This document shows, one piece after another, positions 5,729-19,343 of a DNA stretch of 20,424 nt; the first letter of the stretch is position 1; each line of letters opens with the position of its first letter. The stretch spans positions 1 to 20,424 of IMG/VR virus record IMGVR_UViG_3300042453_001334. One strand, 5' to 3'. The notes below the pieces were generated by a model. It made no database searches. It was not told the origin of the DNA and worked only from the letters and a program-made list of their open reading frames with translations. Origin of the DNA: a virus. A program made the position numbers and the translations under genes.

Positions 5729-6784
5729 TTATTCGGCCTTGGGGCCGTCCTCCGATTCCATTGTCTCTAGTATGCGGACGTTTTTCTTGAGTCTCTCGTC
5801 ATTCGGGTTTCGGCTGACCGCTTCCCTGGCGTGCAGCAAAGCCTCGCTGTAGCGACCCATCTGCATGGCAGCGGAGCACGCTAGATCGGGGACGGCATCC
5901 GAGTAGGCCGCCGGATCGCTCGCGTGCGAACGGTTTTCGTCGGAGCAGTTGAGGGCTTGCCGTGCCCAGTAAAGCGTGCCGACCGGATCCCCCTTCGCCC
6001 ACGCCAGCCCAGCGACGTGGAAAAAAGCCTCCGGCTCCAGCGGGCTCTCCAGCATGGACCCGAGGATATGCAGCTCCCCACGCTTCCCGTCCCGGCGAGA
6101 CAGCGCCCGGCGGGCGTAGGATCGCTCGTTGGGAGCCCCTCCCGGCATGGCAAGGTATTTCGCAAACTCATCCACGCACGCCGGATCGTCGGCGTAGTCC
6201 ATTTCGCGGGCGAGATACCACTGCATCCGGGCGTCGGTCGGATTCTCGCGGACGGCTTGCCGCAGCAGCGTCAGGTCGGTTTTGTGGACCTTGCCGGGTT
6301 GCCGGTGATGGCGGATCACTACGCCGTCGGACACCGTCTGCACTTCCTCACCGTCCCACCGCACCAGCCCCTCGTGCGTCGCACCGGTCCACCGGTAGCC
6401 CGTGCGGGTGTGAATGCGGTCGCACCGAAACCGGACCTCGTGCGACCACCAGTACCAGTAGCGGAGTTTGGTGGTCTCCGGCTTCCAATCACGCTCTAGG
6501 GCTTCCCGCCAGCCGGGGTCGATGGCTTCGTCGAGGTCCAGCCGGATCACCACGTCGGCGTCGGCCGGGGCGTGCATCAGCGAAAGGTTGTGGGCGTCGT
6601 CCCACCGCCACGGGATCGGAGACCCGCGGGCCACGGTCACGCCAGCGGCCTCGAGCAGCTCCACCGTGTTGTCGGTGGAGCCGGTGTCGGTGACCACGCG
6701 AACGTCGGCCTCCCGGCACGACGATTCCCACCGCTCGACGTTGGCGGCTTCGTTGCGGGCGAGGGCGTAGATGGCGACTTTCAT
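5729..6784 (-). CDS. GT2-family glycosyltransferase with TPR-like C-terminus
   Basis: A 351-residue protein with a GT-A type transferase domain at residues 1-165 and helical repeats after it. Visible motifs are IYALARNEAANVERW (residues 5-19), DTGSTDNT (33-40) for nucleotide-sugar binding and RLDLDEAIDPGW (81-92), whose DLDE supplies the metal-binding DxD-like site. Residues about 170-335 contain tetratricopeptide-like pairs (LLRQAVRENPTDARMQWYL; ALLHAREAVSRNPNDERL). Similar two-part enzymes transfer sugars to proteins or surface glycans; donor and acceptor cannot be read from the sequence. ATG 6784 overlaps the methyltransferase stop (ATGA), and the next gene is a tail terminator, so it is expressed with late genes. 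No signal peptide or membrane segment is seen, so it is cytosolic. Confidence 0.88.
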   Translation of the reverse strand: MKVAIYALARNEAANVERWESSCREADVRVVTDTGSTDNTVELLEAAGVTVARGSPIPWRWDDAHNLSLMHAPADADVVIRLDLDEAIDPGWREALERDWKPETTKLRYWYWWSHEVRFRCDRIHTRTGYRWTGATHEGLVRWDGEEVQTVSDGVVIRHHRQPGKVHKTDLTLLRQAVRENPTDARMQWYLAREMDYADDPACVDEFAKYLAMPGGAPNERSYARRALSRRDGKRGELHILGSMLESPLEPEAFFHVAGLAWAKGDPVGTLYWARQALNCSDENRSHASDPAAYSDAVPDLACSAAMQMGRYSEALLHAREAVSRNPNDERLKKNVRILETMESEDGPKAE

Positions 6785-7341
6785 GTAAGGATCGCCCCCT
6801 TCCGAAGCCCGTCATCGAAATACTCCACCGCCCTAGCTTGCTCCTTGGCGAACGTCTCGACCGCCGCCCTCACCTCCCGGTTGTCGCAGTCGTCGGCGAG
6901 GATCACCCGGCTGCCGGCCACCAGCCGGAGGTCGGCCAGTGCCCCGGCGTAGGAGTGGTCGCCGTCGACGTGAGCGAAGTCTGCCGGCGGCAGCGACTTG
7001 ATCGCGTGGGAGTCCACCACGACCAGGTCGGCGTCGATCTGGTGCTTCGCCACCAGCCGCCGCCAGTGGGCGAGGCAGTCGTAGGAGTCGGCGTCCATCG
7101 CCCCGTCGATGCAGAGGTAGTGGGCACCGGGGGCCGCGGCCTCAAACGTCAAGAGCGAGTAGCCGCAGCGGGTGCCGATCTCGATCACGCTGGCCGGCTT
7201 GTAGCGGCGAAAAACCTCGCCCTTCATCGCGTAGTGGAAAATCACCCGACTGTCGCAGCCGAACCAATCGTCTTCCCGCCAGTTGCTTTCCAGCAGTTTG
7301 CGGACGGAGTCGGTCCATGCCACCGATGCTGTCACTCCCAT
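6781..7341 (-). CDS. Class I SAM-dependent methyltransferase
   Basis: A 186-residue protein with a compact Rossmann methyltransferase fold of the Methyltransf_24 / CmcI-like group. Motif I is VIEIGTRCGYSLLTF (residues 52-66), followed by HYLCIDGAMD (74-83), VVVDSHAIKSLP (107-118), the acidic DFAHVDGDHSYAGALADL (121-138) and VILADDCDN (146-154). HVDGDHSY is typical of the group, many members of which modify sugars or small metabolites in surface-polysaccharide clusters. It lies between a glycan-active beta-propeller and a glycosyltransferase and overlaps both, so an O-methyl cap on a sugar is a reasonable inference. The substrate is unknown. It is unlikely to be a DNA methyltransferase, since no DPPY/NPPF-type motif or target-recognition region is present. 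Confidence 0.85.
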   Translation of the reverse strand: MGVTASVAWTDSVRKLLESNWREDDWFGCDSRVIFHYAMKGEVFRRYKPASVIEIGTRCGYSLLTFEAAAPGAHYLCIDGAMDADSYDCLAHWRRLVAKHQIDADLVVVDSHAIKSLPPADFAHVDGDHSYAGALADLRLVAGSRVILADDCDNREVRAAVETFAKEQARAVEYFDDGLRKGAILT

Positions 7342-8393
7342 GCGTCACCCATGATGTTGAGTACGTCGGCGATCGGAACGTAGGCCAGCCACGCCTCGGC
7401 GTCCCGCACGCCGAACGATGCCACGAGCGTGTCCTGGCCGCTGACCGCGAGGCCGGCGGCGAACTCGATGCTGCGGGTTTCTCGGAACGCGAACGGCTGG
7501 GATACCCGCGTGATCCGCCAGTCGGCACCCTCGTCGAACATGACGAACCGGTGTTCGTAGACCCGCCGGCCGCCGGAGACGGCCACCTCGTGGACGATCG
7601 CCCACCACAGACCAGGAGCCCATGGGTGCTCGACGAGCTGCGAGCCGCCGCGGAACCCGCGGGCCACCAGCGGAGCCTCGGCGTGTGCCGTCACAGTCCA
7701 ATCGTCGCCGCACTCATTGACGATGCACGTCCGGCCTTCGTGGCTGCACGAATACAGCCACTCCCTCCGGCCGGTGATCGGCATCCAGTTTTTTTCGTGC
7801 CGGCCGCTCACGGTGTCGTGGCAGCGGAGGTCTTGGATCCGGTCGAAGGTCTCCAGCTTCCCGACGCCGATACGGCAAGTCCCATCGCGGTCCGCCCAGT
7901 TGCGGATCGTGGCCGACGCGATCAGCTCGCCTTCTACGGAGTTGAGCCGCACGTCCTCGAGCCCGGTCACCGCGAACCCGCTGGCTTCGTAGTCTGCGGC
8001 CCAATAGCGTGCGTGCCCGTCGCCTGGTTCGACGAGGCAGTTGAACGTGCGGATCGCTTCGCGGTCCTCCGGCGGAATGACGTAGCGACCGTTTTCGTCG
8101 ATCGAATAGTTGCTTGACCGCACGTTGACGAGCAACCGGTCGCCGTGACTGACGACCGAAGGATTGAACAGCGACCATCCGACGCGGGCCGGCGGCACGT
8201 CGATCTTCGTGAACTCCGCGGCGACGCCCTGGTCGGACAGCGTCCGCGTGTACCAGGTGCGATTGGACCGGACCTTCTCCTCTTTCTCCGCGGAGAGCGG
8301 AAGCCGCATGAGCCGTTCGCACGCCCGGCGGCCAGCGTCGTGCTCGCCGCAGTAGTAAGCGTGGGCCGCGAGTCGGTGTAGGTGTTCGATCAT
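7332..8393 (-). CDS. GH130-like beta-propeller glycan-active protein with N-terminal helical repeat
   Basis: A 353-residue protein. Residues 1-50 are helical with a TPR-like look (LHRLAAHAYYCGEHDAGRRA). The rest has blade motifs of five-bladed propellers related to GH130 and allied glycosidase or phosphorylase families: FNPSVVSHGDRLLVNVR (76-92), GLEDVRLN (144-151), KNWMP (201-205), FRGGSQLVEH (247-256), YEHRFVMFD (279-287) and IEFAAGLAV (309-317) followed by ASFGVRD. The strongly conserved Glu-Asp-Val-Arg and Lys-Asn-Trp-Met-Pro elements suggest a working sugar-binding site, but I cannot assign catalytic residues. I chose ATG 8393, which has AGGTGA about eight bases upstream, over GTG 8405. 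The stop overlaps the methyltransferase start by ten bases. Role is probably synthesis or trimming of a glycan. Confidence 0.72.
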   Translation of the reverse strand: MIEHLHRLAAHAYYCGEHDAGRRACERLMRLPLSAEKEEKVRSNRTWYTRTLSDQGVAAEFTKIDVPPARVGWSLFNPSVVSHGDRLLVNVRSSNYSIDENGRYVIPPEDREAIRTFNCLVEPGDGHARYWAADYEASGFAVTGLEDVRLNSVEGELIASATIRNWADRDGTCRIGVGKLETFDRIQDLRCHDTVSGRHEKNWMPITGRREWLYSCSHEGRTCIVNECGDDWTVTAHAEAPLVARGFRGGSQLVEHPWAPGLWWAIVHEVAVSGGRRVYEHRFVMFDEGADWRITRVSQPFAFRETRSIEFAAGLAVSGQDTLVASFGVRDAEAWLAYVPIADVLNIMGDAWE

Positions 8394-8472
8394 GCCGGTG
8401 TTCACCTGTTCACCGGTTAGCCTAGCGGGATCGGCGTGGGCGTAAACCCCGGATTTTCGCGCCGGAAGTCCA

Positions 8473-10600: not shown

Positions 10601-12436
10601 TCAGGCAGTCGCCATCCGGTAGGCACCGCGGGCTTCGGCCTTGGCAACGCCGTAGCTGAAGTGACCGCGAACCTGGATGCCGAGCATGTTGAAGTCCGCC
10701 TCGGCCTGCTGCACCGTCGGCAGCCGCTGGCCGTTGAGGAACGCGACTTCCATCGCCGGCAGTTCGGCCGGGTTCGCCATGAGCCACCAGGTCGTACCGC
10801 TGGTGAGGTACGCACTGGAGACCACGCGGAACCGACCGGCGAACACGTTCACATTTCCGCGAGTCGCGTTCTCTCCGGTGATGAGCACCGACGAGCCCAT
10901 CAGCTCCTCGGCCGTCATCTCCAGCTCCGGCGGGACGAGCAGGAGCTGCGGCGTGATGCCGAGCGGGTTGCCGTCGGGGTCGGTCAACTTCCGGTAGGAA
11001 GCCACCGCCGTCCGCAGGGACGAAATCTGCAGGGCGTTGCCGGCCGCGGCCGACTCAGCCCGGTAGAACGACGAGTTGGACGCCTGGAACTCTGTCCAGA
11101 AATCCTTGTTGAGCTTGACCGCGGCCCCTCTCCCCAACCTGGCAGGCACTTGGGTCAGAGCACCGAGGTCGTCGTTCACGATGTCGACCATCGTGATCGA
11201 ACTCATACGGCCGGTCAGCTTGGCCCGGATCGTCCGCGTCTCGTCCGAAGCGTCGGCCGACTTCAGTTCGCCGGAAGGTCCAACGTCCTCGAAATCGAAA
11301 CCGCCGTTGAGCCGCACGCCGGTGACCGTCTTGTAGTCACTGACGCTGCGGATCGACGCGATCTGGTCCCACGCCGCTTCGACAGCGGTGTAGCCCTGGA
11401 GCAAGAACTTGCCGTAGGTCGCGGCGAGCACGTTGGAGATCGAGTGAGTGGCGAAACCACTCGCAAGAACCTCCCGCACGTTGCCAGCCGAGACGCGGGC
11501 GGGGCCGTGATACCCGTTGGCACGGGCGGCCTCGACGAGCACCTCCTGCAGCGACGTGCTGCCACGCCGACGGTCAGCCGCCTCGAGGGTCTTCTGGTCG
11601 AAGACCTTCTCGACGTTGCCGAGTCCGCCGTTGAGGCAGAGAGCCGCTTCGATCACCCGCGGGTCATGAGCCGCCGAAGCGTCCACGACGTGGGCAGCCG
11701 GAGCCTTGGGCCGCTCGGCACGCACCTCGGCGAGCCGGTCGGCACGGAGCCGTTCCAGCACGATGTTGGCGACGGCCTCGGCGTCAACGGTGTTGGCACC
11801 GTCGTTGCCGGCAATCACCTTCTGGTCCGCGGCGACAATCGCCGTGGCTTCCGTCGTTGGCACGGCGGCCTCGACGGGCTTCTCGTTGAGCTGCTCGCTC
11901 ATAGTGGAAACCTCATTCGCCTCGGCGGCGATAGCCGCGGACGTTGCAGAGTCCGCACCGAACAGGACCACACTCGTCTCGCGGAGAACCGCTCCACGAG
12001 CAACGCTGATTGGGCCAGGGAACTCGCGACCGTTGACGGCCACGCTTGCTCCCGCGGCGATGTTTTCGATTGAGCCCACGTCGGCACCGATGCTCGCTTG
12101 CAGCGGCACCCCGGCCTTCGCGAGAGCGATGAGCTTGTCGGCCGCTGGCGTGCCGCGGATCAGTTCCCCGCGGAGCATGAGCTGGTTGCCGTCGTTGGTG
12201 GCTTCAAGACTCTTGCCGATCACGCTGTCGAGCAGCGGCATCTCCTTGCCGTGGGCGTAGAGAATCGGGATCGGACGCGAAGCGTCCATGTGTGCGAGGT
12301 CCACCACCAGCGGGTTTCTCGACCAGCCCTGGCGGATCGACGCCCCGGTGTAGGCCACCAACTCAAACGTCGGCACAGCGGCCTCGTCGGCCGCTTGCAC
12401 GTTGAGGGCCGCTGACAGTTCGATGCGATTGCTCAT
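10601..12436 (-). CDS. Prohead protease / major capsid protein fusion
   Basis: A 611-residue polyprotein. Residues 1 to about 175 are a HK97-type (U35/S78-like) prohead protease: IRQGWSRNPLVVDL, then ILYAHGKEMP with probable catalytic His62, and PLQASIGADV with probable catalytic Ser115, ending in LRETSVVLFGAD. Residues about 176-300 are Ala/Glu-rich and likely a scaffold or delta-domain linker. Residues about 300-611 are a HK97-fold capsid protein (REVLASGFATHSISNVLAA; MVDIVNDDLGALTQVPARLG; ITPQLLLVPPELEMTAEEL; NVFAGRFRVVSSAYLTSGT; a basic, aromatic C-terminus). The protease presumably frees itself and trims the scaffold during maturation. ATG 12436 overlaps the portal stop (ATGA). A hairpin follows the gene. 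Such fusions are a known variant of head gene organisation. Confidence 0.93.
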   Translation of the reverse strand: MSNRIELSAALNVQAADEAAVPTFELVAYTGASIRQGWSRNPLVVDLAHMDASRPIPILYAHGKEMPLLDSVIGKSLEATNDGNQLMLRGELIRGTPAADKLIALAKAGVPLQASIGADVGSIENIAAGASVAVNGREFPGPISVARGAVLRETSVVLFGADSATSAAIAAEANEVSTMSEQLNEKPVEAAVPTTEATAIVAADQKVIAGNDGANTVDAEAVANIVLERLRADRLAEVRAERPKAPAAHVVDASAAHDPRVIEAALCLNGGLGNVEKVFDQKTLEAADRRRGSTSLQEVLVEAARANGYHGPARVSAGNVREVLASGFATHSISNVLAATYGKFLLQGYTAVEAAWDQIASIRSVSDYKTVTGVRLNGGFDFEDVGPSGELKSADASDETRTIRAKLTGRMSSITMVDIVNDDLGALTQVPARLGRGAAVKLNKDFWTEFQASNSSFYRAESAAAGNALQISSLRTAVASYRKLTDPDGNPLGITPQLLLVPPELEMTAEELMGSSVLITGENATRGNVNVFAGRFRVVSSAYLTSGTTWWLMANPAELPAMEVAFLNGQRLPTVQQAEADFNMLGIQVRGHFSYGVAKAEARGAYRMATA

Positions 12437-14211
12437 GAGTTGGCGTCCTCGGTTTCTCGCTTGTAGACGCCTTCGGCCCACGAACGGCCGGCGTCACCGC
12501 CCCACAACAGCCACGCAATCTTGCCGGCCGACGGGTAGCCGTCCTCGCCCTCCGACCACCCTTGGCCTTGCTTATCAACTTCGTGGCGTGCGAAGTAACT
12601 CACCATCCGCCCGATCGTGTCGAGCGACAGCGATCGGCCGTTGGCAATGTCACGGGCACGAGCCACGCCGATCGCCGTGCCGCCACGCCCGTACTCGCGT
12701 CGCAACTCAAGACCGCGACGGGCCGCGTCACGAGCGGCTTGCGGGGGCCGGTAGCCGTCGGCGGCCTCGATGCCGTCCTCGTCGTCCTCGGCGGCCATTG
12801 CCGCCGGTTGGGCGTCAACGCCAAGCTCACGCTCCATCGACTTCTCAATCGCCCGCTGCCGCAGCACGATCCGCCAGTCGCGGCCACGCTTGGCACAGAC
12901 TTCGGCGAGACTCGCCATGTTGCTGCCGATCATTGCGGCGTCGGCGTCGGCTTCCTTGAGTGGATCGACGTGTTCAAACCCGTCCCACGTCCACGTCCAG
13001 TTCCATGTGGCGAACGGCGGGAGACCACGCGGGAGGATGCCGGCGGTCACGGCCTCGTCGAGCCACGACATGAGCAGCGGGTCGAGGAACACCCGTTCCA
13101 TGTCCGACCGCTCGACGGCGATCCGCTTGCGATACACGAGGTAGTCGCCACGCATCGACGAGTAGTTCGCGGTAGACGAATCCATCGCGGCGACGATGTA
13201 CGGCATATCCAGCGACCGGGCGATCTCGTTGAGCATCCGACGCACGAATGCGTCGTGCGACGAGGTCGGGTGCTCGGCCCGCATCTGGACCGGCTCCCAC
13301 CCGTCGGGGGCGGCGATCGCCATCCCGCGGACGATCGGCATCGTCTCGAGGGTGGAGAGACTCGCGGCACCGGACCCGTCGGCCGGCATGGTCGTTTTCA
13401 AGATCGCGGCGAAACTGGCGGCCGTCTCGGCCGCCGTCACCACCGCGAGCGTGTAACGCCGCAGAAGGGCGAACAGCTCTAGCGAAGGGGCGATCTCCGG
13501 CACACCGCGGTGCTGGCCTGGTCGGGTGGCGTGATACCAGTGGCAGACATAATCCGAGTCGATCCACTGGCCGTCCAGCGTGAATCCCGGCAGCAGCGAT
13601 CCGGGGTGAGACCTCGCAACCCAGTAGTCGGTGACGTTGCCGTCCTCGTCGAAACGCACGCCGTCAACGTCGTTCTCGGTCAGGTAGCCGACCGGCGAAA
13701 TGACTTGGTCGGCCTCGACGAGTTTGAGGTCCAGTTGCACGCCGCGGAGTTTGGAGTTGTTCGTCTTGAGTCCGAATACTTCGCCGTCGGAAATCTTGGA
13801 GGTCTTAGCGATCCGCAGCTTGCGGGCGAGGTCGATCCGGTCAGCCCAGTCGAGGAATGCCGTCTCAACCGACCGCACCGCGTCGGGGGACACGTCGGGG
13901 CCGAGATCGAGTTGGAGACGCGGGCCGGTGCCTACGAGGTCGTTGGACCAGGTGGACGCGATGCCGGCCGCGTATGAGTTATTTCGAAGCTCGTAGCGGG
14001 CACGATTGCGAAGGATCTGGCGGATCTGCGGCTGGAGTCCGGCGTCGGCCGAGAGGTTGTCGGCCCGCGACCAGTGGTTGCGGTTCAAGTCGGTCGTTTG
14101 GGCGGAATCGTACTTGGCACGCACCATCGTCGAGATCGCCGCCTTTTGGGCGTCGATCGTCGACTGCATGGTGGACCGTGATGGCCCAAGAATGCGTGAG
14201 AATAGGCCCAT
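12433..14211 (-). CDS. Phage portal protein, lambda family, with extra C-terminal domain
   Basis: A 592-residue protein. Residues 1-465 are a lambda-gpB-type portal, the dodecameric ring through which DNA enters: RARYELRNNSYAAGIASTW (70-88), NDLVGTGPRLQ (90-100), KLVEADQVISP (163-173), HWYHATRPGQHRGVPEIAPS (224-243), and SLDMPYIVAAMDSSTANYSS (333-352) followed by MRGDYLVYRKRI. Residues 466-487 are an acidic linker. Residues 488-585 form a separate domain: AARRGLELRREYGRGGTAIG, VARARDIANGRSLSLDTIGR, MVSYFARHEVDK, SAGKIAWLLWGGDAGRSWAE. This recurs on other phage proteins as far as I recall but is not part of lambda gpB. ATG 14211 follows the gpW-like stop by two bases; its Shine-Dalgarno is weak, suggesting coupling. 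Confidence 0.92.
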   Translation of the reverse strand: MGLFSRILGPSRSTMQSTIDAQKAAISTMVRAKYDSAQTTDLNRNHWSRADNLSADAGLQPQIRQILRNRARYELRNNSYAAGIASTWSNDLVGTGPRLQLDLGPDVSPDAVRSVETAFLDWADRIDLARKLRIAKTSKISDGEVFGLKTNNSKLRGVQLDLKLVEADQVISPVGYLTENDVDGVRFDEDGNVTDYWVARSHPGSLLPGFTLDGQWIDSDYVCHWYHATRPGQHRGVPEIAPSLELFALLRRYTLAVVTAAETAASFAAILKTTMPADGSGAASLSTLETMPIVRGMAIAAPDGWEPVQMRAEHPTSSHDAFVRRMLNEIARSLDMPYIVAAMDSSTANYSSMRGDYLVYRKRIAVERSDMERVFLDPLLMSWLDEAVTAGILPRGLPPFATWNWTWTWDGFEHVDPLKEADADAAMIGSNMASLAEVCAKRGRDWRIVLRQRAIEKSMERELGVDAQPAAMAAEDDEDGIEAADGYRPPQAARDAARRGLELRREYGRGGTAIGVARARDIANGRSLSLDTIGRMVSYFARHEVDKQGQGWSEGEDGYPSAGKIAWLLWGGDAGRSWAEGVYKRETEDANS

Positions 14212-14213
14212 TC

Positions 14214-14423
14214 TCAGCCGGCCCCCGGATACTGGCACTGGGCATACCGGATGCACGCGAACGGCGAAGCCGTGCTCGCGGCCCGCGAACCCAACACGAA
14301 CTTCGCGGCCTCGACCTGGCGGTCGAGTTCGTGCTGTTCCACCTCACCAGCGTCGGTACGAGCACGTCGCGGCTGCGTCAGATTCGCAGCGATCGCGTCG
14401 ATCACCTCGTCGTTGGTTGCCAC
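14214..14423 (-). CDS. Small gpW-like head-tail joining candidate
   Basis: A 69-residue protein starting at GTG 14423 (VATNDEVIDAIAANLTQP), with GGAG about seven bases upstream. It directly precedes the portal gene with two bases between them, the position and size of lambda gpW (68 residues), which joins the filled head to the tail. Visible features are an N-terminal helix, a turn region (RTDAGEVEQHELDRQVEAAK), and a C-terminal segment (FACIRYAQCQYPGAG). I recall related small proteins with GS-V-QH and an R-x-x-x-x-PPG ending before portals in planctomycete phages. The sequence itself is not clearly gpW, so the name rests on position. A longer start upstream is possible but would overlap the 26-codon ORF and has no better ribosome site. 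Confidence 0.55.
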   Translation of the reverse strand: MATNDEVIDAIAANLTQPRRARTDAGEVEQHELDRQVEAAKFVLGSRAASTASPFACIRYAQCQYPGAG

Positions 14424-17222: not shown

Positions 17223-19343
17223 TTACCTACCCATCTTGTCAAGCAACGCGGCCCGTCGGGCGGCCATTTCCTCGCGTGTGATGACCTTTCGCGGCGGTGC
17301 TTTCGGTGCCTCCGCACCAACGGCCGACACTCCGGCCACGCTGGCAGCCACCGCGGAGCCGATCAGGCAGTCGAGGAAATGGTTGTCGCGGCCGGGGATC
17401 AGTTGCCACTCGTCCACCGTGCGGCCGGTGGATTTGTTCTCTGTGCGAGTTGGAAACTCTGCGGCGATGTGGTCGAAAAGCATTTCGTGCTTGCCCGCGT
17501 GAAACGTGAATGCCATCGGGTCGGCCGAACCGAGTTTCATGCGACCGGCGATCAGCGATTTCCAATAGTTCGTGTCAAAAAGAATGTGCCGCTGCTTCTT
17601 GATCGTCGAGGTTCGCCAGTGGGCACCGACCCGCTCCCCCGGCTCCGGCTTCGCGTCCGACATTGTCCGCCGGCTGGCACCGACGTAGCGACCGTGAGAC
17701 GGCAGAAGCCGCGTGCCGTGGGTCGACCGGCGGGCGAAGTCCCGCGTCACGTCTGCGGTCTGTGCCCAGTTGGCGTCCACCAGGAGAAGGGCTACGCGGT
17801 GGACCGCGTCGGAATCCTCAGACTGAAACTCGCGGCCGAGTATTTCGCGAGCGACCACCTCGAGACCAAGGTGCATCGCGTCCGCCAGCGGGGCGTTGCT
17901 GGCCGCCAGCCGCAGCGTCCGATCGACCTCGCGGAGCGTGAAGTACGAACGGTTCTGGTCCGGGTAGGTGCCGTATCCCACGACGTGCCCGCGAAGCTGC
18001 GAACCCCACGCACAGATCGCCCAGTAGAGACACGCTTCCTGCACGTCGACGAACGCGGTGAGCGTGCTGCAGCCGGCCGGGACCACGAAACGCGGCACGT
18101 TGATCGCGTGATCCGCCAGGTCAGCCGGCCGGACGGCGTCGGTCCGCGACTCGTCGGCGATCGGCTCCTGCTGATACTCACTCGCGAACACCTCCGGGCC
18201 GTCGTCGATGAGGGCGTTATAGAAGTGCTGGACCGCCGACAACTCTTGGTCGCGGTCGTAACAGTGCTCCCAGTAAACCTCGCAGCCATCATCCATCGCC
18301 GCCTGGTTGGACCGATAGAACTCGGTGGCTTCACGCCACGCCCGGAGCTGGTCGCCGTCGATCTCTTTGTCGTAGGTCTGCCGGATTCGCTTGTAGTCGC
18401 CCATCCAGAGGTCATCGTGCCGCTTCGACCATGCCCGAACGGCCTTCACGCGAACACCTTGCCATGCCGGGTCCGCGAGGAGCTGGTCGATCACGTCGTC
18501 GCGTGCGATCACCGTGGCGTTGCAGACCACGGCGAGAGTCTTGCCGTGACCGCCAAGTTTCAGAATGTTTTTCTTGATGATCGCCAGCCGCTTGGCGATC
18601 TGCACAGCGGATGCCGCCGACTCGTCGGTCTGAATGTCGTCGAGGATCACGAGGTCCGGCCGGGCCTGGACGCCGTCGGCCCGCTTGTAGCGAAGACCTC
18701 GAGACGACGCCATGAGACCGTGGCACGAGACGATCGCACCGCTGGCCTTGCTGCCGGGAATCTTCGGCAGCACGATCGTGTCGGCGGTCCACTCGATGTG
18801 GGTCGACTCGCCGTTGTACGTCTGCCCGGAGCACCGCTGCGGCTTGCCTTCGAGAGCCCGCACGGGGTGGCAGACTTCGGGGAAGTCTTCGTAGAGTAGA
18901 TCGTTCTCGTTCAGTTCCATCTTGATCGAGTCGATCGACATTTGGGCCTTCGTCGACTCGCTGCCGAACACCGCGACGAACGACCGGCGACCGGTGAGGC
19001 CGCACCAGATTGCGAACACCTCGGAGCGGGTCGTCTTACCGCTGCCACGCGGGAGGGCTTCGATCGACCGGCCGCCGTTGTCGGCCGCGTCCTGGCACCG
19101 CGTGTTGCCACGCTGGTGGTCGGGGGACATGGGCCACTGCCCGGTGGAGTGCGGGAAGTAGGTGACAGCGAAATACTCAAACGACGCTTCGGCTTGCCGG
19201 CGTCGGTCGGGGTTTTGCACCGGCGGGATCTCGCCAATGTCGGCACCGCGGCGGGTCCGCTCGCGTGTCCGCTCGATGTCTTGGACACGTTTGCGCTCGG
19301 CCGCGGCGACCTGGTGCTCCGGGGCGGATTTGGGTCTACCCAT
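17223..19343 (-). CDS. Terminase large subunit (GpA-like)
   Basis: A 706-residue protein that packages DNA into the prohead. The ATPase half has Walker A PRGSGKTT (residues 98-105), Walker B LVILDD (231-236) and the coupling motif VVCNATV (272-278). An adenine-binding or Q-motif region probably lies around SPDHQRGN (73-80). The nuclease half, about residues 425-670, is RNase-H-like with AFVDVQE (Asp433), LLLVDANW (Asp523) and GRDNHFLDC (Asp653, Asp658). The last, DNHFLD, is typical of lambda GpA-like terminases. A basic N-terminus (AERKRVQDIERTRERTRR) may bind DNA or a small subunit. ATG 19343 overlaps the stop of the RuvC-like gene by eight bases. No small terminase subunit is recognisable in the window. 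Confidence 0.94.
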   Translation of the reverse strand: MGRPKSAPEHQVAAAERKRVQDIERTRERTRRGADIGEIPPVQNPDRRRQAEASFEYFAVTYFPHSTGQWPMSPDHQRGNTRCQDAADNGGRSIEALPRGSGKTTRSEVFAIWCGLTGRRSFVAVFGSESTKAQMSIDSIKMELNENDLLYEDFPEVCHPVRALEGKPQRCSGQTYNGESTHIEWTADTIVLPKIPGSKASGAIVSCHGLMASSRGLRYKRADGVQARPDLVILDDIQTDESAASAVQIAKRLAIIKKNILKLGGHGKTLAVVCNATVIARDDVIDQLLADPAWQGVRVKAVRAWSKRHDDLWMGDYKRIRQTYDKEIDGDQLRAWREATEFYRSNQAAMDDGCEVYWEHCYDRDQELSAVQHFYNALIDDGPEVFASEYQQEPIADESRTDAVRPADLADHAINVPRFVVPAGCSTLTAFVDVQEACLYWAICAWGSQLRGHVVGYGTYPDQNRSYFTLREVDRTLRLAASNAPLADAMHLGLEVVAREILGREFQSEDSDAVHRVALLLVDANWAQTADVTRDFARRSTHGTRLLPSHGRYVGASRRTMSDAKPEPGERVGAHWRTSTIKKQRHILFDTNYWKSLIAGRMKLGSADPMAFTFHAGKHEMLFDHIAAEFPTRTENKSTGRTVDEWQLIPGRDNHFLDCLIGSAVAASVAGVSAVGAEAPKAPPRKVITREEMAARRAALLDKMGR

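Follow-up and report, generated by a model that had tools for sequence, protein, structure and literature searches.

The portal gene and its C-terminal domain

The DNA analyzed here, called the window, is the whole 20,424 bases of the virus record IMGVR_UViG_3300042453_001334 from IMG/VR. Its minus-strand head and tail genes include a GpA-type terminase (17223-19343), a portal gene, and a PhageMin_Tail-family tail protein. The portal protein carries an accessory domain at its C-terminus, which also occurs on other phage head proteins and as a free protein in bacteria. A preliminary description of this DNA proposed such an extra domain behind a lambda-type portal core and an acidic linker, and we confirm both (Table 1). 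The domain does lie in the interval given for it (12433-12750), but it begins 9 bases outside, at 12759, and on its 3' side a short tail and the stop codon occupy 12433-12450. The three motifs quoted for the domain are all present, and the window holds a single copy.

The portal core is complete up to about residue 497. In Pfam, Phage_portal_2 (PF05136) matches residues 62-381 at 194.3 bits, above the curated cut-off of 32.9, and an alignment with lambda gpB reaches residue 497, which corresponds to residue 520 of the 533 in gpB. The NCBIfam equivalog TIGR01539 (portal_lambda) scores 144.7 bits, below its curated cut-off of 172.7. The full-length model was built from 27 alignment rows and has several weak stretches (mean predicted local distance difference test score, pLDDT, 75.5; predicted template modeling score, pTM, 0.57). 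Over model range 37-487 it matches the lambda virion portal 8xow (VIA, Z 27.8, 384 aligned residues, root-mean-square deviation 5.4), and by this match the portal fold including the crown is present. Judged by eye, Met16 (14211) is a likelier start than the GTG.

The C-terminal domain is not the portal crown or barrel, an identity which was considered and ruled out. Among the 50 VIA matches listed, the matched ranges end by residue 495, and 30 of 80 close portal relatives are complete yet stop where the domain would begin. In addition, the acidic linker separates the domain from the core. This linker is probably disordered in view of its low pLDDT, although values below 50 also occur in several stretches elsewhere in the full-length model. 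The earlier statement that the domain is not part of classical portals is thereby upheld.

When modeled alone (AlphaFold2, 48 relatives), the domain forms five helices with a mean pLDDT of 96.8 and a pTM of 0.88. Its sole match is phrog_2859 (PHROGs v4, function listed as unknown, E 5.9e-30). Pfam and NCBIfam gave nothing credible for the final ~105 portal residues, nor did a sequence search of the PDB with the domain, and among solved structures Foldseek found no PDB match at E ≤ 0.001 while the best VIA match reached Z 5.0. Relatives are numerous, with at least 596 confirmed in IMG/VR and 322 in genome_contigs; 80 loci from each set were kept for detailed analysis. The invariant residues of the domain are kept in phages and bacteria alike.

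The preliminary description left open whether the domain faces the terminase or the capsid interior. Since it follows the crown, general portal architecture suggests that it should face the capsid interior. In SPP1 gp6, the crown is described as residues 421-470 of 503, topping the tunnel that admits DNA to the capsid interior (PMC9701221), and the portal crown is reported to touch packaged DNA (PMC7617512). By analogy, a domain tethered past the crown would lie inside the head.

Table 1. Portal gene of the window, its parts, and the adjoining gene.
Feature	Position	Strand	Details	Basis
Portal open reading frame (ORF)	12433..14256	minus	607 codons	counted from GTG
Lambda-family portal core, complete	12766..14073	minus	residues 62-497	Pfam, gpB alignment, structure comparison
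Acidic linker	12763..12810	minus	residues 483-498, QPAAMAAEDDEDGIEA	pLDDT < 50 in full-length model
Accessory domain	12451..12759	minus	residues 500-602, ~103 residues, five helices; GGT, RH and WGGD motifs	profile and model
Stretch between helices 3 and 4	12529..12582	minus	EVDKQGQGWSEGEDGYPS; two alleles among related portals	alignment; L207 versus L234
Next gene, a single ORF for head maturation protease plus major capsid protein	10601..12436	minus		PF25209; phrog_4523 "major head and protease protein", E 7.2e-58

The ATG of the protease-capsid ORF overlaps the portal stop codon (ATGA), and this ORF holds no copy of the accessory domain. Elsewhere on the minus strand, amid the tail genes, lie a methyltransferase-like gene (5729-6784, Methyltransf_24 above cut-off) and a gene (6781-7341) whose matches to Glycos_transf_2 and TPR are weak and fall under the cut-off. 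The ORF at 7332-8405 in the same region had no match in the family scan.

Optional presence and selection

The domain is optional among closely related portals. The 80 portals most similar to that of the window in their core (65-100% identity) comprise 49 with the domain, one of them cut at the contig end, and 31 without it. Thirty of the domainless portals end 1-17 residues past the aligned core, and the remaining one (L222) is cut at its 3' end. None of 22 domainless records (6-49 kb, many of them fragments) carries the domain elsewhere. After a coverage filter, 78 of 81 rows were kept for a quick portal tree, leaving 77 labels once L222 was removed, and over these 77 rows the tree requires seven changes between presence and absence. 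With L222 included, starred branches force four of eight changes.

L232 and L233 are 98.4% identical over the 1,946 bp before the domain site and 99.0% identical over the 2,146 bp after it, with 34 versus 355 bp in between. The difference of ~320 bp thus falls at the domain site, where the 34 bp encode a short, different tail. Four more pairs, at 78-85% identity, have a similar gap at this site. A role in packaging had been among the suggestions of the preliminary description, but such near-identical phages without the domain make it unlikely that packaging or assembly depends on it.

Where it is present, the domain is under purifying selection, as the median ratio of nonsynonymous to synonymous substitution rates (dN/dS) is 0.16 for the domain versus 0.26 for the portal core (871 non-independent pairs). 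The stretch between helices 3 and 4 exists in two forms, found in 29 and 19 of the 49 domains (one cut), and it accounts for most of the difference between L207 and L234. L201, on the other hand, differs from the window domain along its entire length and not in the loop alone.

Carriers among phage head genes

Searching the C-terminal residues alone for other contexts gave relatives in IMG/VR, genome_contigs, and plasmids and showed the domain to be mobile, in agreement with the earlier suggestion that further phage proteins carry this pattern. Partners were assigned by local profiles, and fusion within one ORF was distinguished from separate neighboring ORFs. In the 80 IMG/VR loci, the domain is most often fused to the protease, behind a separate portal (23 loci) or a separate MuF (20). 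It is fused to the portal ahead of a separate protease in 15 loci, and to both portal and MuF in a single ORF in 12. The other ten comprise protease fusions with the left side unseen (3), portal fusions with the right side unseen (2), free domains after a portal with the right side unseen (2), and one each of a protease fusion before a separate capsid gene, a portal fusion before a separate capsid gene, and a free domain between portal and protease. The domain thus lies mostly at the junction of portal or MuF and protease, joined to either side or both, and most of the 15 phage-type genome_contigs loci show this junction as well. Pfam and PHROGs searches with representatives confirm the partners and neighbors as Phage_portal, Phage_Mu_F, Peptidase_S78, and Phage_capsid; the Phage_Mu_F match is above cut-off in L024 and below it in L076.

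Annotated phages extend this picture. For 11 of 14 annotated loci (two being plasmid loci) the local profiles did not recognize the neighbors, and the annotation was read instead. Nine of the 12 phage loci lie in a head-gene region, with a portal-MuF setting in HRTV-4 and a protease-capsid setting in CRP-811 and the Synechococcus phage S-CBS1; in the others the domain is free, as in Vibrio phage 1.123.O, or on other proteins. The depositor labels on annotated phage matches (DNA methyltransferase, DNA-binding protein, coil protein, "DUF2945") were not used as evidence. In BFVD, the fold occurs in proteins named portal, prohead protease, XkdF, HAD-like, ParB/sulfiredoxin, and Dps. The available text of the PaBG paper (PMC7412058) contains none of the words DNA-binding, gyrase, and gp148 and gave nothing on the domain product, and the available text of a jumbo-phage overview (PMC7824862) likewise gave nothing on the domain.

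Each domain-bearing record searched carries the domain once. Exactly one match (E ≤ 0.001) was found in all of 47 records, comprising 36 from IMG/VR, many of them fragments, and 11 named phage records of 30-440 kb, in which a strongly diverged second copy could escape detection; eight further domain-bearing records likewise hold a single copy. A domain tree (174 rows, 99 columns, poorly resolved) requires ten partner changes among its 92 phage rows and two changes between cell and phage, and its well-supported branches force far fewer. Row labels came from the profile classification and from inspection by eye, and 16 rows had been left without a label by the tree.

Other small elements occur at the same place. 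After the domain, the portal ORF of L120 contains a second small motif (RGIGAYRTNPQSVRPNVRSEEQWAYARVNAFL...DKDLLP), of a kind known from other phage proteins. The N-termini of protease-fused forms (L019 and relatives; L013, L014, L080, L104) have two short motifs of another kind, MPSPGPTENEDEFISRCMSDEEAM... and ..CSGWAVEKEDGEVVGCH.., ahead of the domain, and for this reason small accessory domains may have a hot spot at the portal-protease junction.

Bacterial copies and the Hva1_TUDOR neighbor

Most genome_contigs loci are cellular. Sixty-four of the 80 are labeled so, namely 49 small free genes (in Rhizobium, Mesorhizobium, Henriciella, and others), whose start codons are uncertain, and 15 Xanthomonas genes with a long tail. 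The distribution is patchy, as only two of 101 genomes of one order have the gene, the seed genome included. No portal, protease, capsid, or MuF profile matched near 65 of the 80 loci. Around 27 cellular loci (104 ORFs from a crude caller, spurious ones included), no family among the 25 listed of 105 occurs in more than four ORFs, and none of these 25 is a phage family. All neighboring ORFs had also been clustered, but spurious frames prevailed in that clustering and it was set aside.

The bacterial domain is linked to Hva1_TUDOR (PF11160), which adjoins it on the same strand in 27 of the 80 genome_contigs loci, upstream in 16 and downstream in 11. The spacing, measured between profile matches and not gene ends, is 18-83 nt; in one further locus the two lie 1.5 kb apart. 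The family assignment was confirmed in three loci. Two of three plasmid matches were examined, and one of them (L095) has the same pair. Additionally, both domains are fused in one protein in L100, L164, L173, and CRP-811, each above the Pfam cut-off. The 127-residue protein of 150E35-1 was considered as another such fusion and rejected, as its domain at 27-125 leaves no space for a TUDOR domain. A limited literature search found nothing on a bacterial role of Hva1_TUDOR; DUF2945 occurs in a Pfam update, and a further paper from this search reportedly catalogues proteins released from the bacterium Asaia.

All 15 Xanthomonas copies have a Lys/Ala-rich, basic tail resembling histone H1, with a net charge of +49 to +70. 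These tails (L106, L109, L112, L114, L115, L118, L122, L123, L125, L126, L131, L134, L138, L139, L147) end near a conserved AKAAGRPYPNLVDNMAVA-type motif. The domain itself tends to be basic, with a median isoelectric point of 9.84 over 63 sequences.

Comparison with known systems

phrog_2859 represents the same domain: all 30 members of our alignment A1 match it, and the window domain corresponds to profile positions ~163-264 of 740. The profile is far longer than the domain, and the entry has no function and covers viruses only. Under the names phrog 2859 and DUF3140, no literature was found in the one collection searched.

DUF3140 (PF11338), seen here as small proteins in actinobacterial genomes, shares colinear R, M, Y/F..RH, and W...WG.D motifs with the domain. 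The hhalign score of 25.3 exceeds all 60 column shuffles (maximum 22.2, P 7e-4), but with a probability of 26% the likeness is weak. HMMER searches with a limit of E 10 were negative both ways, and none of the 30 A1 members matches PF11338 up to E 1 in Pfam. Hva1_TUDOR lies directly upstream of DUF3140 in nine of 17 places, counted from 20 loci (L178-L197). No DUF3140 match was found in two sets of 10 and 6 domain-bearing genomes, which is no proof of absence as the search controls were silent; other genomes gave matches in 1 of 185 and 14 of 198.

The closest functional comparison is with domains fused to MuF or portal proteins, which are described as presumed injected effectors (Iyer et al., 2017; PMC5512222). 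They are likewise small accessory domains expected in the capsid, and the window domain is another variant that extends this group. It is not among the enzyme families described there, and unlike those effectors it also occurs on prohead proteases and protease-capsid fusions, in one copy per record, and in a free bacterial form often paired with Hva1_TUDOR. MuF toxins are also known, and SPP1 gp7 is described as a head protein that binds the portal (PMC5576092); according to the title of a reference cited there, it binds DNA and the portal targets it to the procapsid. The domain is similarly head-associated. It has no Phage_Mu_F match in Pfam, and it often stands next to MuF as an additional domain.

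In phage T4, too, the head contains small proteins that are dispensable; these internal proteins have a cleaved targeting peptide. The domain differs in riding on whole structural proteins, and its own cleavage is putative.

Possible function of the domain

Our preferred explanation, held tentatively and with somewhat less than even confidence, is that the last ~103 portal residues, an independent and optional domain, serve as cargo of the head interior, which is held on a tether and associates with DNA or the nucleoid. The probably flexible acidic tether would place twelve copies at the DNA side of the portal ring, inside the head. A domain that changes carriers, occurs in single copies, and is lost from near-identical phages looks like a passenger and not a building block. 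Head proteins would then serve as the ticket into the capsid, and delivery to its interior would be common to all carriers. Once there, the domain may associate with packaged or entering DNA; alternatively, it might be freed by the prohead protease, enter with the genome, and act on the host nucleoid early in infection. As the domain is optional, it would tune infection in some hosts rather than build the head. The association with DNA or the nucleoid is suggested by the basic tail, the basic isoelectric point, and the position at the DNA side, and the Hva1_TUDOR partner fits this role without proving it. The reported contact of the crown with packaged DNA and the DNA-binding protein brought to the SPP1 procapsid by the portal also speak for it.

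Several observations weigh against this explanation. The window domain has a net charge of merely +3, values for 63 members run from -13 to +14, and the member in the halovirus HRTV-4 looks acidic. Only one of two scanned Xanthomonas tails resembles the histone-like HC2, below cut-off (E 2.2e-4), while the other matched nothing, and the basic tail may have been added in Xanthomonas alone. Within the DNA examined, Hva1_TUDOR was found in none of the 80 IMG/VR loci and not in the window, and structural work is described as tying fungal Hva1 to NADPH or protein binding and not to DNA (PMC5008624). Three of the 12 annotated phage loci, in the large genomes PaBG, 150E35-1, and SCTP-2, lie outside an evident head cluster. 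Finally, as neither Foldseek nor VIA found a clearly resembling solved structure, an activity cannot be read from the fold.

The domain could instead be an effector or counter-defense element resembling polyvalent proteins, one that is released inside the head and co-ejected to act on a host target other than DNA, which we regard as unlikely but worth serious consideration. An optional cassette with recent gain or loss, two alleles of the helix 3-4 stretch in related portals, and the precedent of other effector domains fused to portal or MuF (PMC5512222) would all suit such a role, and one copy per record whatever the carrier fits a function insensitive to copy number. Conversely, no catalytic or anti-defense family matched in Pfam, NCBIfam, or PHROGs, PADLOC not being searched, and an uncleaved portal-fused copy would stay in the virion. 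The genome loci without recognized head genes indicate that a free chromosomal role exists, and they, together with the non-phage families listed around cellular copies, argue against an effector of this kind.

The same loci speak against an assembly or packaging cofactor, in which the domain would bridge the portal and the protease or capsid and improve portal incorporation or head filling. If two parts meet, fusion to either partner at the portal-protease junction is what one would expect, and purifying selection is strong. However, the domain is missing from phages whose portal and downstream DNA are 98-99% identical to those of phages with it, the domainless records searched, many of them fragments, do not hold it elsewhere, and its carriers are expected to vary widely in copy number, a head having 12 portals and hundreds of capsid subunits. 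We therefore consider a cofactor decidedly improbable. It is hardly credible that the domain is a selfish or neutral mobile element riding along in head genes with no benefit to the phage: the repeated gain and loss speak for this, but the median dN/dS is below that of the portal core, invariant residues are shared by phages and bacteria, and Hva1_TUDOR recurs beside the bacterial copies.

A bolder version of the cargo explanation can be drawn, which we consider rather unlikely. Here, the domain together with Hva1_TUDOR or a histone-like tail would form a bacterial nucleoid system shared with phages. Tailed phages would in this way carry a histone-like passenger, which is loaded into the head by fusion beside the portal-protease junction and travels with the genome to organize or protect the DNA on entry or to reshape the host nucleoid.

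Annotation usually treats the genes of the phage head as fixed structural components, and here one small domain moves among the genes for portal, prohead protease, and capsid. This ties a bacterial protein family that lacks annotation, along with its Hva1_TUDOR partner, to phage heads. Because the domain is absent from near-identical phages, these provide natural pairs with and without it for probing accessory head cargo.

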